From Pseudacidovorax intermedius (GTDB lineage Bacteria > Pseudomonadota > Gammaproteobacteria > Burkholderiales > Burkholderiaceae_C), in NCBI RefSeq assembly GCF_003350475.1, contig NZ_QQAV01000001.1, positions 860,836 through 924,835 of the forward strand: a DNA stretch of 64,000 bases. The letters run 5' to 3'. Positions 7,562 through 52,237 of this stretch are shown piece by piece (position 1 is the stretch's first letter; the number at the start of each line of letters is the position of its first letter). A program made the translations under genes and the position numbers. Below the pieces are notes generated by a model that was not told where the DNA came from, made no database searches, and saw nothing but the letters and a program-made list of their open reading frames with translations.

Positions 7562-8455
7562 TCAGGCGGCCGACGGAGGCGCGTCGCCCGCCTCGTCCGG
7601 GGCCGCGTCCGCCTGCTCCTCGCCCGCCACGGCATGCAGCACCGGCACCGTCTGCGGTGCGGGCGGCGTGGGCGCGGCCAGGGCGCTGGCCGGCGGCATC
7701 TTGCGCACCAGTTCCTCGGCGAAGGCCACATAGGCCTGGCTGCCGCGCGCGCCGGCGTCGAAGACCACGCCGGGCAGGCCATAGCTCGGCGCCTCGGCGA
7801 GGCGCACATTGCGGGGAATGACGGTGTCGAACACCTTGTCGCCGAAATGCGCCTTCAGCTGGTCGCTCACCTGCTGCTGGAGGGTGATGCGCGGATCGAA
7901 CATCACCCGCAGCAGGCCGATGATCTGCAGGTTCTTGTTGAGGTTGGCGTGCACCTGCTTGATGGTGTTGACCAGATCGGTCAGGCCTTCGAGCGCGAAG
8001 TATTCGCACTGCATGGGCACGATCACGCCATGGGCGGCGCACAGGCCATTGAGCGTCAGCAGGCTGAGCGAGGGCGGGCAATCGATGAGCACGAAGTCGT
8101 ACTCGGCGCCAACGGCGGCCAGCGCGGTGCGCAGACGCTTCTCGCGGCGGTCCAGGGCGACCATCTCCACCTCGGCGCCCGCCAGCTCGCGGTTGGCGGG
8201 CAGCACGTCGTAGCCGCAGGCCTCCACCGACACCCTGGCTTCGGCCACCGAGGCCGATTCGAGCAGCACGTCGTAGACGGTGTACTCGGCGCTGCGCTTG
8301 TCGATGCCCGAACCCATGGTCGCGTTGCCCTGCGGATCCAGGTCGATCATCAGCACACGCTGGCCGACCTTCGCCAGGCCGGCGGCGAGGTTGACGGTGG
8401 TGGTGGTCTTGCCCACCCCACCCTTTTGGTTGGCGATGCAGAAGATGCGGGCCAT
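7562..8455 (-). CDS. parA: Chromosome-partitioning ATPase ParA (Soj)
   Basis: A 297-residue Walker-type ATPase that binds the nucleoid in the ATP state and moves ParB-parS complexes. The deviant Walker A motif KGGVGKTTTTVNLAAGL is at about residues 10-26, with VLMIDLDPQGN and DFVLIDCPPSLSLLT as further nucleotide-binding motifs. Chromosomal ParA is usually near 255-265 residues. Here an Ala/Pro-rich tail of about 40 residues follows the conserved core and looks disordered. It is transcribed with the rest of the mnmG-parB cluster. Confidence 0.97.
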   Translation of the reverse strand: MARIFCIANQKGGVGKTTTTVNLAAGLAKVGQRVLMIDLDPQGNATMGSGIDKRSAEYTVYDVLLESASVAEARVSVEACGYDVLPANRELAGAEVEMVALDRREKRLRTALAAVGAEYDFVLIDCPPSLSLLTLNGLCAAHGVIVPMQCEYFALEGLTDLVNTIKQVHANLNKNLQIIGLLRVMFDPRITLQQQVSDQLKAHFGDKVFDTVIPRNVRLAEAPSYGLPGVVFDAGARGSQAYVAFAEELVRKMPPASALAAPTPPAPQTVPVLHAVAGEEQADAAPDEAGDAPPSAA

Positions 8456-9191: not shown

Positions 9192-9845
9192 TCAGCTTTG
9201 TTTTTTGCGCATCCAGACGATGCAGCGCTCGGCGTCCAGGCCGGGGACAATAAGTTGTTCCACGTGAAACACATCCACGGAGGCCTGAAGCCGCTCGATC
9301 TCCTCGTCCGGTTGCTTTCCCTTCATCGCCATCCAGATGCCCGCGGGAGTCAGAAGCTGGGCAGAGCCATCCACGAAATCGACCAGCGACGCAAAAGCGC
9401 GCGAAGTGATCACGTCGTAGCGTCCCTCCAGCGTCTCCACGCGCGCGTGGAGACCGCGAAGTCGGGGCAATCGCAGGGCGCCGGCCATCTGCTGGACAAA
9501 AGCCATCTTCTTGGCGACCGCATCCAGGCAATGCACTTCCAGGTCGGGACGGCAAATGGCGATCACGACCCCGGGCAGGCCGGCGCCCGAGCCCACGTCC
9601 AGCAGGCGCCCTTCCCCCGGTTGCTGTCGCCCCAGGGCTGGAATCGCAGCAAGGCTGTCCAGCAGGTGGTGCGTGATGACCAGCGCCGGATCGCGTAGCG
9701 CCGTGAGGTTGTAGACCTTGTTCCACTTGAGGATGGCACTGCCGTAGTCCAGCAGCTGACCGATCTGCGCATCGGTCAAGTCCAGTCCCAGCGTTCGGGC
9801 GCCCTCCTCCAGTTGTTCGCGTTTCGCTTGGCTCACGACACTCAT
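9192..9845 (-). CDS. rsmG: 16S rRNA (guanine527-N7)-methyltransferase RsmG
   Basis: A 217-residue SAM-dependent methyltransferase (formerly GidB) that makes m7G527 in 16S rRNA. The SAM-binding motif is [17 protein letters not shown], followed by [19 protein letters not shown] and [15 protein letters not shown], all diagnostic of RsmG. Its start overlaps the mnmG stop by four bases (ATGA), giving translational coupling. A near-consensus parS site lies inside the gene at 9256-9271, so those bases serve both as coding sequence and as a ParB site. Confidence 0.97.
9256..9271. promoter_or_regulatory. parS site, one mismatch (inside rsmG)
   Basis: TGTTCCACGTGAAACA differs from the 16-base parS consensus TGTTTCACGTGAAACA at one position. 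ParB nucleates at such palindromes near the replication origin. The parA and parB genes lie just downstream and a perfect parS is 1.1 kb away, which supports function. Confidence 0.88.
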
Positions 9846-11788
9846 GCGGGCACCGTCTCCGTGTCCTTCTGCTGGAAGGCCTTGTAGCCACCCTTGCGCA
9901 GATGAATCATCAACAAGGAAATCGCCGCAGGCGTGATGCCGGAGATGCGCGACGCTTGCCCCAGGGTTTCCGGCCGATGCTTGCTGAGCTTCTGCCGCAC
10001 CTCGATGCTGAGTGCCTGGACCTGCATGTAGTCGAGGTCGTCCGGCAGGCGCAGGCTCTCGAAGTGCGCGGCGCGCTGCACTTCTTCGTGCTGCTTTTCG
10101 ATGTAGCCCGCGTACTTGGCCGCGATCTCCACCTGCTCCACTTCGTCCGGCGCCAGCGGCTGCGCGGGCCGGTACTTGCCGCCGTCCAGCGACAACAGGC
10201 TGTCGTAGCTGATGTTCGGCCGGCGCAGCAGATCGCCCAGGTTGTATTCGTGCTCGATGGCCTTGCCCAGCACACGTTCGGACTCGCTGGCCGGCAGGTT
10301 GCGGGGATTCACCCAGGTCGATTTGAGCCGCTCTGTTTCACGTGAAACAGCGTCGCGCTTCCGGCAGAAGGCGTCCCATTGCGCCTCGCCCACCAGCCCC
10401 AGCACCCGGCCCGCCTCGGTCAGGCGCATGTCCGCGTTGTCCTCGCGCAGCTGGAGCCGGAACTCGGCCCGGCTCGTGAACATGCGGTAGGGCTCGGTCA
10501 CACCCTTGGTGATCAGGTCATCCACCAGCACGCCCAGGTAGGCCTCGTCCCGCCGGGGCACCCAGGCCTCCTTCTCCTGGCACAGCAGCGCGGCATTCAG
10601 CCCGGCGAATAGGCCCTGCGCCGCGGCCTCCTCGTAGCCCGTGGTGCCGTTGATCTGCCCGGCAAAGAACAGGCCCTGGATCGCGCGCGTCTCGAAGCTG
10701 CTCTTCAGGCCGCGCGGGTCGAAGTAGTCGTATTCGATCGCGTAGCCCGGGCGCAGGATGTGTGCGTTCTGCAGGCCCGGCATGCTGCGCACCATGGCGA
10801 GCTGGATGTCGAAGGGCAGGCTTGTGGAAATGCCGTTGGGGTAGTACTCGTGTGTGGTCAGGCCTTCGGGCTCCAGGAAGATCTGGTGGCTGTCCTTGTC
10901 CGCGAAGCGATTGATCTTGTCTTCGACGCTCGGGCAGTAGCGGGGGCCCACACCGTCGATGCGGCCGGTGAACATGGGCGAACGATCGAAGCCCGAGCGG
11001 ATGATGTCGTGCGTCTGCGCATTGGTGTGCGTGATCCAGCACGGCATCTGCTGCGGATGCATGTCGGCCCGGCCCATGAAGCTGAACACCGGCATGGCGG
11101 GATTGCCGCCCCCGGGCATGCCGTCGCCCGGCTGCTCCGTGCACTGCGAAAAGTCGATGGTGCGGCCATCGATGCGCGGCGGCGTGCCGGTCTTCAGGCG
11201 TCCCTGCGGCAGCTTGAGTTCCTTGAGCCGCGCCGACAGGCTGACCGCAGGTGGGTCCCCTGCCCGGCCGGCCTGGTAGTTGTCCAGTCCGACGTGGATG
11301 CGGCCATCCAGAAAGGTGCCCGCCGTCAGCACCACCGCCCGCGCGCGGAAGGCAACGCCCACCTGCGTGACGGCGCCGACCACGCGGTCGCCCTCCAGCA
11401 GCAGATCGTCCACGGCCTGCTGGAACAGCGTGAGGTTGGGCTGGTTCTCCAGCCGATGCCGGATGGCGGCCTTGTACAGGATGCGGTCCGCCTGCGCCCG
11501 AGTGGCGCGCACGGCCGGTCCCTTGCTGGAATTGAGGATGCGGAACTGGATGCCCGCCTCGTCGGTCGCGATGGCCATGGCGCCGCCCAGGGCGTCCACT
11601 TCCTTGACCAGATGGCCCTTGCCGATGCCGCCGATGGACGGATTGCAGCTCATCTGGCCGAGGGTCTCGATGTTGTGCGTGAGCAGCAGCGTGCGGCAGC
11701 CCATTCGGGCTGCGGCCAGCGCCGCCTCGGTGCCGGCGTGGCCGCCACCGACGACGATCACGTCGAAGGAATCGGGATGGATGTACAT
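9842..11788 (-). CDS. mnmG: tRNA uridine-5-carboxymethylaminomethyl modification enzyme MnmG
   Basis: A 648-residue FAD enzyme (formerly GidA) that acts with the GTPase MnmE to make the cmnm5 modification of wobble uridine in several tRNAs. The Rossmann FAD motif [19 protein letters not shown] is near the N-terminus, with [15 protein letters not shown] close behind. Other family marks are [11 protein letters not shown] and the C-terminal helical MnmE-binding region with YAGYIEKQ and [11 protein letters not shown]. It is slightly longer than the E. coli protein. It opens the leftward cluster that runs through parB, and a perfect parS site lies inside it. Confidence 0.98.
10334..10349. promoter_or_regulatory. 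parS site, perfect consensus (inside mnmG)
   Basis: TGTTTCACGTGAAACA matches the universal chromosomal parS 16-mer exactly. It lies inside the mnmG coding region, 3.4 kb from the start of parB. Perfect matches of this length are not expected by chance in a window of this size. Confidence 0.96.
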
Positions 11789-17923: not shown

Positions 17924-18370
17924 GTGGCCCCCCGTTCCTCTTCGCCGTCCACAGCGACGGCCCCACCGCTCACCATCGGCCAGGCCGCCGCCCGCTCCGG
18001 CGTGTCGGCCCGCATGGTGCGTCACTACGAGACGCTGGGGCTGCTACCCGCCGTCTCGCGCACCGACGCCGGTTATCGCCTCTACGGCGATGCCGACGTC
18101 CACTCCCTCCGTTTCATCAAGCGAGCCCGCGACCTGGGCTTCTCCATCGACGAGATCCAGCAGCTCGTCGGCCTCTGGCATGACCGCAGCCGCTCGAGCG
18201 CAGCGGTGAAGCGCATTGCCCGCACCCACCTGGACGACCTGGACCGGCGCATTGCCGAACTCCAGGCCATGCGCGGCACGCTCGCGCACCTGGTCCATGG
18301 CTGCCGGGGCGACCATCGGCCCGATTGCCCCATCCTCGAAGACCTCGCAAGAAGCGGCCTACCGCGCTGA
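17924..18370 (+). CDS. cueR: Copper-responsive MerR-family regulator CueR
   Basis: A 148-residue MerR-family activator. The N-terminal HTH is LTIGQAAARSGVSARMVRHY, the wing and dimerisation helix follow, and the C-terminal metal loop is CRGDHRPDC with Cys127 and Cys135 spaced as in E. coli CueR (Cys112/Cys120). It should sense Cu(I) and activate the two 19-base-spacer promoters nearby. The start appears to be GTG at 17924 behind a GGAA-like site. About 15 residues precede the HTH, more than in E. coli CueR. Confidence 0.9.
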   Translation: MAPRSSSPSTATAPPLTIGQAAARSGVSARMVRHYETLGLLPAVSRTDAGYRLYGDADVHSLRFIKRARDLGFSIDEIQQLVGLWHDRSRSSAAVKRIARTHLDDLDRRIAELQAMRGTLAHLVHGCRGDHRPDCPILEDLARSGLPR

Positions 18371-18479
18371 ACACGCGTCGGATCGCCCAGGCCCGGCGAT
18401 CCGGCCGGGCGAATGCGCCCATCGCGACCCTCCATCACGCCACACGAACGCTTGCGCGAAGCCGCGGAAGGCCTCCGTT

Positions 18480-18488
18480 TGTGGAAAA
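18480..18488 (-). promoter_or_regulatory. DnaA-box-like site, inverted
   Basis: TGTGGAAAA on the plus strand reads TTTTCCACA on the minus strand, matching TTWTNCACA. It lies just outside the left edge of the first origin-like module. Confidence 0.5.
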
Positions 18489-18739
18489 GCGGCCTCCCTC
18501 CCCCCGAACGGCGCTCAAGACGCCGTGTTGGCCGCTTCTCCCCAGCTGGACTGGATAACTTTGTGGGCAACTCGCGCGTTGTCTTGTAAAGGCAGTGCAA
18601 GTCCTTGATTTTGCTGGGCTTTCAACAATCTGCACAAATAATCAGCAGTGCATATTTAAGGCGTCCAAAGCCCAATCCCACATTTGCATCCCCCTTGTCA
18701 AAGGACAACTGTGGGGATGAATCCGGCACAACTGCCCGG

Positions 18740-18748
18740 TTATCCACA
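18740..18748 (+). promoter_or_regulatory. DnaA box, perfect (copy A)
   Basis: TTATCCACA, exact consensus. The equivalent box in copy B is at 19259-19267. Confidence 0.8.
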
Positions 18749-18859
18749 CCCGAGGGCGGACGGCCGGCATTTGTCCCCATCGGTGCGACATCCACGAAGC
18801 AACCCTGCCCACATGGGCCAAGGAAGGCCAAATGCCTGTCCGGCCGAGGGATTCGTGGG

Positions 18860-18900
18860 TTTTCCACAGGCCGGCGGCTTCCTTATCTATTACGACTATT
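18860..18900 (+). promoter_or_regulatory. DnaA box plus GC cluster plus DnaA-trio-like tract (copy A)
   Basis: TTTTCCACA (18860-18868) is followed by the GC-rich GGCCGGCGGC and then CTATTACGACTATTC, which parses as triplets CTA-TTA-CGA-CTA-TTC. The complement of CTA is the 3'-GAT trio. Box, GC cluster and trios in this order match the basal unwinding system described for bacterial origins. Confidence 0.62.
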
Positions 18901-19258
18901 CAGATATTGAAGATGAAGGAAGGAAAACAGGGACAACGGGCGCCCGCAAAAAAAGTGGGGGCGTGGCGGCGCGCCGATCCGATTGGGCGCCTCAACCGGT
19001 CGGGCGGAGAACGACCGAAGCGACGCTGGCGACGAGACGCCGAAAACGCCGTCTGTCCCCATATTCGTTGGACAACTTTGTGGGCAACTGTCGGACTGCC
19101 TTGTAAAGCCAACGCAACTCATTGATTTACAAGAATTATCTTTGGCTGCTCATTTTTTTGGCAGTGCATAGTTTGGGCCGGCATTGGCACTTGGCAGCCA
19201 GAAAGCGGACGCCCTGTCAAAGAACAACTCTGGGGACGGCTGTGGAACAAGCGCCCTC

Positions 19259-19267
19259 TTATCCACA
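19259..19267 (+). promoter_or_regulatory. DnaA box, perfect (copy B, inner)
   Basis: TTATCCACA, exact consensus, 519 bases from its partner at 18740. Confidence 0.8.
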
Positions 19268-19377
19268 GCGAGAGCGCTTCGGCCCCAGTTGTTCGCCCGC
19301 CCACGACAGCACGGACGCAAGGTTGCCCACATCCGTCGCTCGGCGCCAAATCCTTGGCAGGCCGCCGAAAACCATGG

Positions 19378-19418
19378 TTATCCACAGACCGGGTGCATCC
19401 TTATCTATGACGACTAAT
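19378..19418 (+). promoter_or_regulatory. DnaA box plus GC cluster plus DnaA-trio-like tract (copy B)
   Basis: Perfect TTATCCACA (19378-19386) is followed by GACCGGGTGC and then CTATGACGACTAATG (triplets CTA-TGA-CGA-CTA-ATG). The downstream stretch to 19436 is AT-rich. The element is at the same relative place as 18860-18900 in copy A. Confidence 0.64.
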
Positions 19419-19537
19419 GTTGAAATAAAAGAAAAGAGCCAAGTCAGGACAACTTCTGCGTCGTGCGTCAAAGCGGGATTCACGGTCTTTCCGAAATCGC
19501 TGGGTGCCCTGCGTCCGCACCGCTACGATCCGCCCCC

Positions 19538-52182: not shown

Positions 52183-52237
52183 GCAAAAAAGTCTAGGACC
52201 ACGAATTCACCAAAATGAAATAAATTCTGATGGACCG

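Follow-up and report, generated by a model that had tools for sequence, protein, structure and literature searches.

Introduction

The oriC of Escherichia coli is composed of a DUE, R1, an IHF site, and further boxes, and is located near gidA (mnmG). The basal unwinding system (BUS) of Bacillus subtilis arranges DnaA boxes, a GC-rich spacer, DnaA-trios, and AT-rich DNA in a set order and with single-strand polarity, and the BUS search rule given in the cited passage asks for at least three trios (3'-NAN-5') at most 16 bp from a DnaA box (Pelliciari 2021, PMC8287927). According to the cited passages on the bipartite origins of B. subtilis, Helicobacter pylori, and their relatives, one half is unwound (PMC5043019, PMC13220808).

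Rare putative double oriCs have been listed for Acidaminococcus, Dehalobacter, Ralstonia pickettii, and Ochrobactrum, with no evidence at that time of two functional origins on one chromosome (Gao 2015, PMC4403523). Pseudomonas aeruginosa contains two autonomously replicating elements, only one of which is essential (cited in PMC4403523). For chromosome 1 of Burkholderia cenocepacia, the passage cited here treats the exact origin position as uncertain and mentions a second DnaA-box cluster (PMC4948915). Among the matches listed from the open-licence PMC literature, titles and abstract openings held no description of tandem complete modules in the family considered here, which is a weak absence. 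We analyzed a 64-kb stretch of Pseudacidovorax intermedius DNA (hereafter the window), in which an origin-like module is present twice, and compared it with related loci in the genus, family, and order.

Materials and methods

Profile R1 is a sequence-only profile derived from alignment A1, which comprises 32 modules, both window copies included. The closed family genomes (33) are single-contig genomes picked by hand from the earlier part of the family match table, not all such genomes. Sites for IHF, KOPS, and parS were called with what we take to be their consensus strings.

Results

Two diverged copies of one module in a gene-free interval

The interval, its borders, and the two copies are as follows.

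18371..19537, + strand: gene-free putative oriC region flanked by merR and a response-regulator gene (adjoining Pfam hits and R1 matches)
17978-18370, + strand: merR gene (Pfam MerR-DNA-bind), left border of the gap
19538 onward: response-regulator gene (Pfam Response_reg and Trans_reg_C), right border of the gap
18518..18937, + strand: putative origin module, copy 1, aligned to copy 2; R1 E=1.6e-31, a value flattered because both copies are among the 32 R1 rows
19035..19453, + strand: putative origin module, copy 2, aligned to copy 1; R1 E=1.0e-32, flattered in the same way

The preliminary description had reported a gene-free stretch holding a module twice at a constant offset, with two DnaA boxes in each copy, and this was borne out: the borders coincide with the end of merR (18370) and the start of the response-regulator gene (19538), the repeats occupy 18518-18937 and 19035-19453, and copy 1 has its boxes at 18740 and 18860, copy 2 at 19259 and 19378. 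The copies are diverged direct repeats, identical at 271 of 425 columns of a gapped alignment (~64%). Their alignment score of 99 lies far above the values from 500 dinucleotide shuffles (mean 10.9, max 16), and a chance repeat was therefore rejected. The repeat search returned ungapped blocks in families of 94, 72, 56, and 29 nt with a start-to-start spacing of 517-519 bp, and CTATNACGACTA was found in both copies. A coding origin of the gap was likewise rejected, given that the open reading frames across it are mechanical and that the flanking genes stop and begin exactly at its borders. An assembly artefact was rejected because identity between the copies is just 64% and six separate genomes each contain both. 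The composition profile of the 64-kb window was weak or uninformative on the origin.

Putative DnaA boxes, trio-like tracts, IHF sites, and unstable elements

The following elements were located in and beside the two copies.

18740..18748, + strand: DnaA box 1, copy 1, TTATCCACA
18860..18868, + strand: DnaA box 2, copy 1, TTTTCCACA, adjoining the trio-like tract
19259..19267, + strand: DnaA box 1, copy 2, TTATCCACA
19378..19386, + strand: DnaA box 2, copy 2, TTATCCACA
18480, - strand: extra DnaA box shortly before copy 1, TTTTCCACA
18885..18898, + strand: trio-like tract, copy 1, ATCTATTACGACTA, degenerate relative to the family CTACTACTACTA
19403..19416, + strand: trio-like tract, copy 2, ATCTATGACGACTA, degenerate relative to the family CTACTACTACTA
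18598..18610, - strand: IHF consensus, copy 1, WATCAANNNNTTR, one of two exact matches in 64 kb
19115..19127, - strand: IHF consensus, copy 2, WATCAANNNNTTR, the other exact match in 64 kb
18878..18927, no strand: 50-bp stretch with the lowest duplex stability in the window, putative unwinding element (copy 1)
19396..19445, no strand: next lowest in duplex stability among non-overlapping 50-bp stretches, putative unwinding element (copy 2)

Four boxes with at most one mismatch lie inside the modules and one more at 18480, forming a DnaA-box cluster of the kind expected of an oriC. The two boxes of a copy are 119-120 bp apart in both window copies, and three of the 14 exact occurrences of TTATCCACA in the 5.98-Mb assembly fall inside the interval. 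The two lowest-stability windows, starting at 18878 and 19396, place an AT-rich element beside the boxes, as is also expected of an oriC; the third least stable 50-bp stretch of the window, at 52204, is near in value to these two.

The trio-like tracts are weaker in both window copies than in one-copy relatives, which carry CTACTACTACTA where the window has CTATTACGACTA and CTATGACGACTA. Read in the register of the family consensus CTACTACTACTA, copy 1 gives CTA TTA CGA CTA and copy 2 gives CTA TGA CGA CTA; the tracts start 18 nt behind box 2 and are interrupted by CGA. When the trio rule was applied in a loose form of our own coding, the window copies passed in another register (TTCCTTATC, ATCCTTATC at 10 nt) and failed in the family register. 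Of the DnaA-trios earlier proposed for each copy, the presence of a trio-like tract in both is upheld, but the tracts are degenerate compared with CTACTACTACTA and stand 18 nt behind box 2. Set against the published rule, the tracts fall outside it in the family register and inside it in another, and the IHF site and the AT-rich element may carry more weight in P. intermedius. In another genome (G179; L240:474-536, C21), the trio tract of one of two modules consists of 21 TAC repeats directly behind the DnaA box, a microsatellite that could allow origin strength to vary via slippage.

The exact IHF consensus occurs only twice in the 64-kb window, once per module. Among genus modules, the IHF core is present in 27/27 and the full consensus in 23/27. 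The full pattern was found in 10 of 29 other family loci at a different place, 34 nt before box 2, and in 2 of 33 modules of closed multi-module genomes, for which the span searched was shorter and left the genus's upstream position uncovered. The IHF site is a genus feature of the module, not a family-wide one.

Homology to modules adjoining dnaA

In the P. intermedius genome, the R1 search at E<=0.001 gave no match outside the two repeats. DNA matches to the interval were obtained in 14/14 same-genus genomes and in 0/25 others in that draw, while a scan for the box-plus-trio pattern found family members (43 of 250 genomes). The exact motif pair was present in 15 stretches from Pseudacidovorax, Xenophilus, and some isolates or bins assigned to Comamonadaceae, Proteobacteria, or Pseudomonadota. 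In the family, R1 matched 386 of 397 genomes, and the module was present in all 33 picked closed genomes.

By hand from the coordinates, the module was placed directly downstream of the dnaA end in 11 of the 33 closed genomes and just upstream of dnaA in one (G150), and it lies <100 kb from mnmG in 31. At three loci (L070, L073, L078), inspection of the flanks by eye put it between the apparent dnaA 3' end and an ATG read as that of dnaN. Its distance from dnaA reaches ~300 kb in G258, and G299 has one module behind dnaA and one beside mnmG.

Neighborhood and strand polarity

The following features of the window lie to the left of the interval.

9842..11788, - strand: mnmG (gidA), classic oriC neighbor (PF01134)
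7562..8455, - strand: gene for a ParA-type ATPase (PF13614/PF01656)
10334..10349, no strand: exact match to the presumed parS consensus (palindrome), inside mnmG

A one-mismatch parS-like palindrome is present at 9256, inside the rsmG gene. Together, parA, mnmG, and both parS-like sites are located ~7-11 kb from the interval, which combines homology to dnaA-linked modules with proximity to mnmG, parA, and parS. The earlier expectation that parABS would lie near the putative oriC agrees with parA at 7562..8455 and the exact parS at 10334, with mnmG nearby. The dnaA gene is ~210 kb away on the same contig (668 kb) and is preceded by one exact DnaA box (contig 667933) and one one-mismatch box, CTATCCACA, a pair that may serve dnaA's own control. 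A dnaA-linked origin in this genome was rejected, as R1 has no match there at E<=0.001.

GC skew, proposed in the preliminary description as a check, was computed and gave no clean answer in the own genome. The mean was -0.008 in 13 samples to the left and +0.002 in nine to the right (p=0.11). With finer sampling of the contig, the cumulative curve was weak and flat over ~880-1240 kb; among the sampled points, the lowest was that at 1160-1180 kb, 280 kb from the interval. The polarity of KOPS-like GGGNAGGG was lowest at 965-985 kb, ~105 kb to the right of the interval; it runs steadily past dnaA (668 kb), which argues against replication starting there. One conjecture is that the origin moved recently and that the skew lags behind for this reason.

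A closed genome of the family, G101, carries two modules on one strand, at 394.7 and 398.8 kb. The cumulative GC skew of its samples reaches its low where the 370-390 kb sample ends and climbs from the one at 400 kb onward, so that the sampled minimum lies beside the modules and 260 kb from dnaA. With the arms split at 394 kb and at 2.0 Mb (the latter chosen by eye after the data had been seen), 19 of 21 samples were negative on one arm and 14 of 15 positive on the other. Nine of the ten samples from dnaA (134 kb) to the modules were negative; dnaA is therefore not the turning point. In G101, too, the turn of the KOPS-like count comes before the modules, at 360-370 kb, which is ~25-35 kb away from them.

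These results have to be set against the reading in which the interval is a DnaA-regulated promoter region or titration locus and replication starts near dnaA or elsewhere on the contig. The weak skew of the own genome, in which the KOPS-like and GC samples are lowest at 965-985 kb and 1160-1180 kb, respectively, and the two boxes ahead of a distant dnaA would fit it. Against it stand the restriction of R1 matches at E<=0.001 to the two repeats, the same module directly behind dnaA in 11/33 closed genomes, and the homologous double module beside the sampled skew minimum of G101, and we consider it highly unlikely. The dnaA-linked homologs, the proximity to mnmG, and the skew turn in G101 point to the module as the oriC of the family, and the interval is very probably the chromosomal oriC of P. 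intermedius. The earlier identification of the interval as oriC is supported on these grounds, together with the absence of a second R1 match and the nearby parA and parS.

Module number in the genus, family, and order

According to the R1 and repeat searches, the genus contains six genomes with two modules (G000, G001, G006, G007, G009, G011) and seven with one (G002, G005, G008, G010, G012, G013, G014), and two further genomes, G003 and G004, with four repeat copies, of which R1 recognizes three in each. In G003 and G004, the trio tract or boxes have been lost in some copies. Both genomes (loci L026 and L027) are Xenophilus-like, with four tandem module copies, some visibly decayed. R1 scores were 114.6 and 110.8 bits for the window copies, 123.8-136.8 for the seven single-copy relatives, and 42.3 and 75.9 for decayed copies of G003/G004, two more of which were not found.

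Across the family, a hand tally gave at least two matches in 126 of 397 genomes (three matches in 14 of these), some of the genomes being drafts with matches on different contigs. Two or three modules are present in 15 of the 33 closed genomes, at spacings from 266 bp to 28.7 kb. The earlier view that an origin with two units in series would be unusual holds against the textbook picture, but not within this family, in which multi-module origins are common. Twenty-five of the 33 modules of the 15 closed multi-module genomes satisfy the loose trio rule (three NTN triplets <=16 nt from a box, own coding), and box spacing, taken by hand, is exactly 119 nt in 22 and 118 or 120 in three more. All modules share the same strand in 14/15 of these genomes, an arrangement that gives no hint of a symmetric pair in which each module would load a helicase for one direction. 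Among the matches listed, opposite-strand pairs ~1.8-29 kb apart were seen in G074, G161, G271, G299, G301, G333, G357, and G384.

In a sample of 150 genomes from the order, 40 matched; 35 of these belong to other families, and many match weakly. Clear tandems in other families of the order were observed in G478 (L241, three modules) and G030 (L242, two modules; 189/234 columns identical). The second box cluster mentioned for B. cenocepacia may belong to a broader pattern within the order.

Age and constraint of the duplication

The tree built from 27 modules of the genus places all six copy-1 sequences in one group (100/98) and all six copy-2 sequences in another (100/100), and the duplication is therefore older than the six species; the deeper joins, four-copy species included, have no resolved order. 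Constraint was assessed on 63 core columns. These are the columns conserved across the 26 A1 rows outside the two-copy group, the six rows belonging to the window, G006, and G009 having been set aside. In copy 1, 5/63 core and 72/140 other columns vary (Fisher p=4e-10); in copy 2, 6/63 core and 60/140 other columns do (Fisher p=9e-7). All six species depart from the family at four core columns in copy 1 and at three in copy 2, and some of these columns lie in the trio tract.

The alternative offered in the preliminary description, an active origin plus a fossil, could draw on the drift of the copies to 64% identity and on the clearly decayed copies known in G003 and G004. The retention of both copies in six species and the concentration of constraint on family-core columns weigh against it, as do the R1 scores of both window copies, well above those of decayed copies of relatives. 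Because both copies predate the six species and are constrained on core columns, a simple fossil is improbable, and the interval likely contains two selected units, as judged from substitution patterns. Selection does not prove firing, and constraint on a copy could also keep DnaA titration.

Discussion

Like the B. subtilis BUS, the modules described here run from boxes through spacer and trio-like tract to AT-rich DNA, with single-strand polarity, and one-copy relatives of the window carry the textbook CTACTACTACTA. They differ in that two units stand in series with a degenerate trio tract in both window copies, that the spacer is 18 nt in the window and in the dnaA-linked L070 but 14 nt in many closed relatives, and that an IHF site is part of the module in the window's genus. 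The E. coli oriC resembles the interval in its DUE next to a box, its IHF consensus site, its mnmG neighborhood, and the location of dnaA elsewhere (in part PMC13220808), but its module is single and not duplicated. With the bipartite origins of B. subtilis and H. pylori (oriC1-dnaA-oriC2), the interval shares two DnaA-box clusters close together; in contrast to two clusters flanking dnaA with one unwinding element, here both same-orientation repeats keep all parts, an unstable element is present in each, and dnaA lies not between them but 210 kb away. The putative double oriCs of Gao 2015 and the P. aeruginosa elements likewise represent the idea of more than one origin-like region per chromosome. 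The Gao 2015 candidates are single cases, mostly 150-882 kb apart or arising from a second dnaA, whereas here a short tandem repeat of the whole module has both copies constrained and recurs in the family.

The bipartite origins provide the precedent for the strongest competing account, in which one module melts and the other is a non-melting DnaA platform (an enhancer, titration, or reactivation site), as proposed for B. subtilis oriC1. It would explain the constraint on both copies without double firing, and the degenerate trio tracts of both copies agree with it. In the cited passages, published bipartite origins unwind only in oriC2, and B. subtilis oriC1 is a possible enhancer (PMC5043019, PMC13220808). 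On the other hand, the AT-rich element and the box spacing, not boxes alone, are kept in both copies, and the two lowest-stability windows fall one in each copy, whereas the published bipartite origins described in those passages are unwound in one half only (PMC5043019, PMC13220808). This account is possible yet doubtful. The earlier claim of two complete units is borne out for the structure of both copies and by their constraint in six species; the trio tracts are degenerate, and melting of either unit has the standing of a proposal.

We consider it fairly probable that the interval is an oriC in which the whole initiator module is present twice in direct repeat and in which the pair works together as follows. 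Each repeat would be a directional DnaA loading platform consisting of the IHF site, weak and strong boxes, a GC-rich spacer, the trio-like tract, and the AT-rich element. We infer that DnaA and IHF bind there, with IHF bending DnaA into place and DnaA loading from box 1 to box 2 before running into the adjoining AT-rich tract on one strand. Either module might then melt, or both might jointly form one larger DnaA platform, so that both modules would take part. Given the speed of replication forks, a fork from one module would copy its partner almost at once, and the pair would therefore behave as one origin firing once per cycle.

The repeated gain, decay, and relocation of modules suggest origin birth and death, in which module number would rise and fall through duplication and decay and the origin could move away from dnaA. 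More tentatively, and with the chances somewhat against it, the family origin might be an array of complete, individually competent unwinding modules that arise through duplication, persist under selection, and disappear as they decay. Under this view, DNA would be opened by both window units, and the number of modules (1 to 4) would determine how strongly or when initiation occurs and provide the route by which origins shift along the chromosome.

The rule of one unwinding unit has so far been questioned mainly through isolated, widely spaced candidates. What we describe here is a tandem of complete putative origin modules that has been conserved and is found in several genera and beyond the family, and it makes an old question addressable, namely whether two initiation units can coexist and what prevents double firing. 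Relatives with different module numbers also form a natural set in which initiation timing can be compared with module number and the departure of origins from dnaA can be followed. The usual picture of one start unit per bacterial chromosome becomes testable on these natural one-, two-, and four-module relatives.
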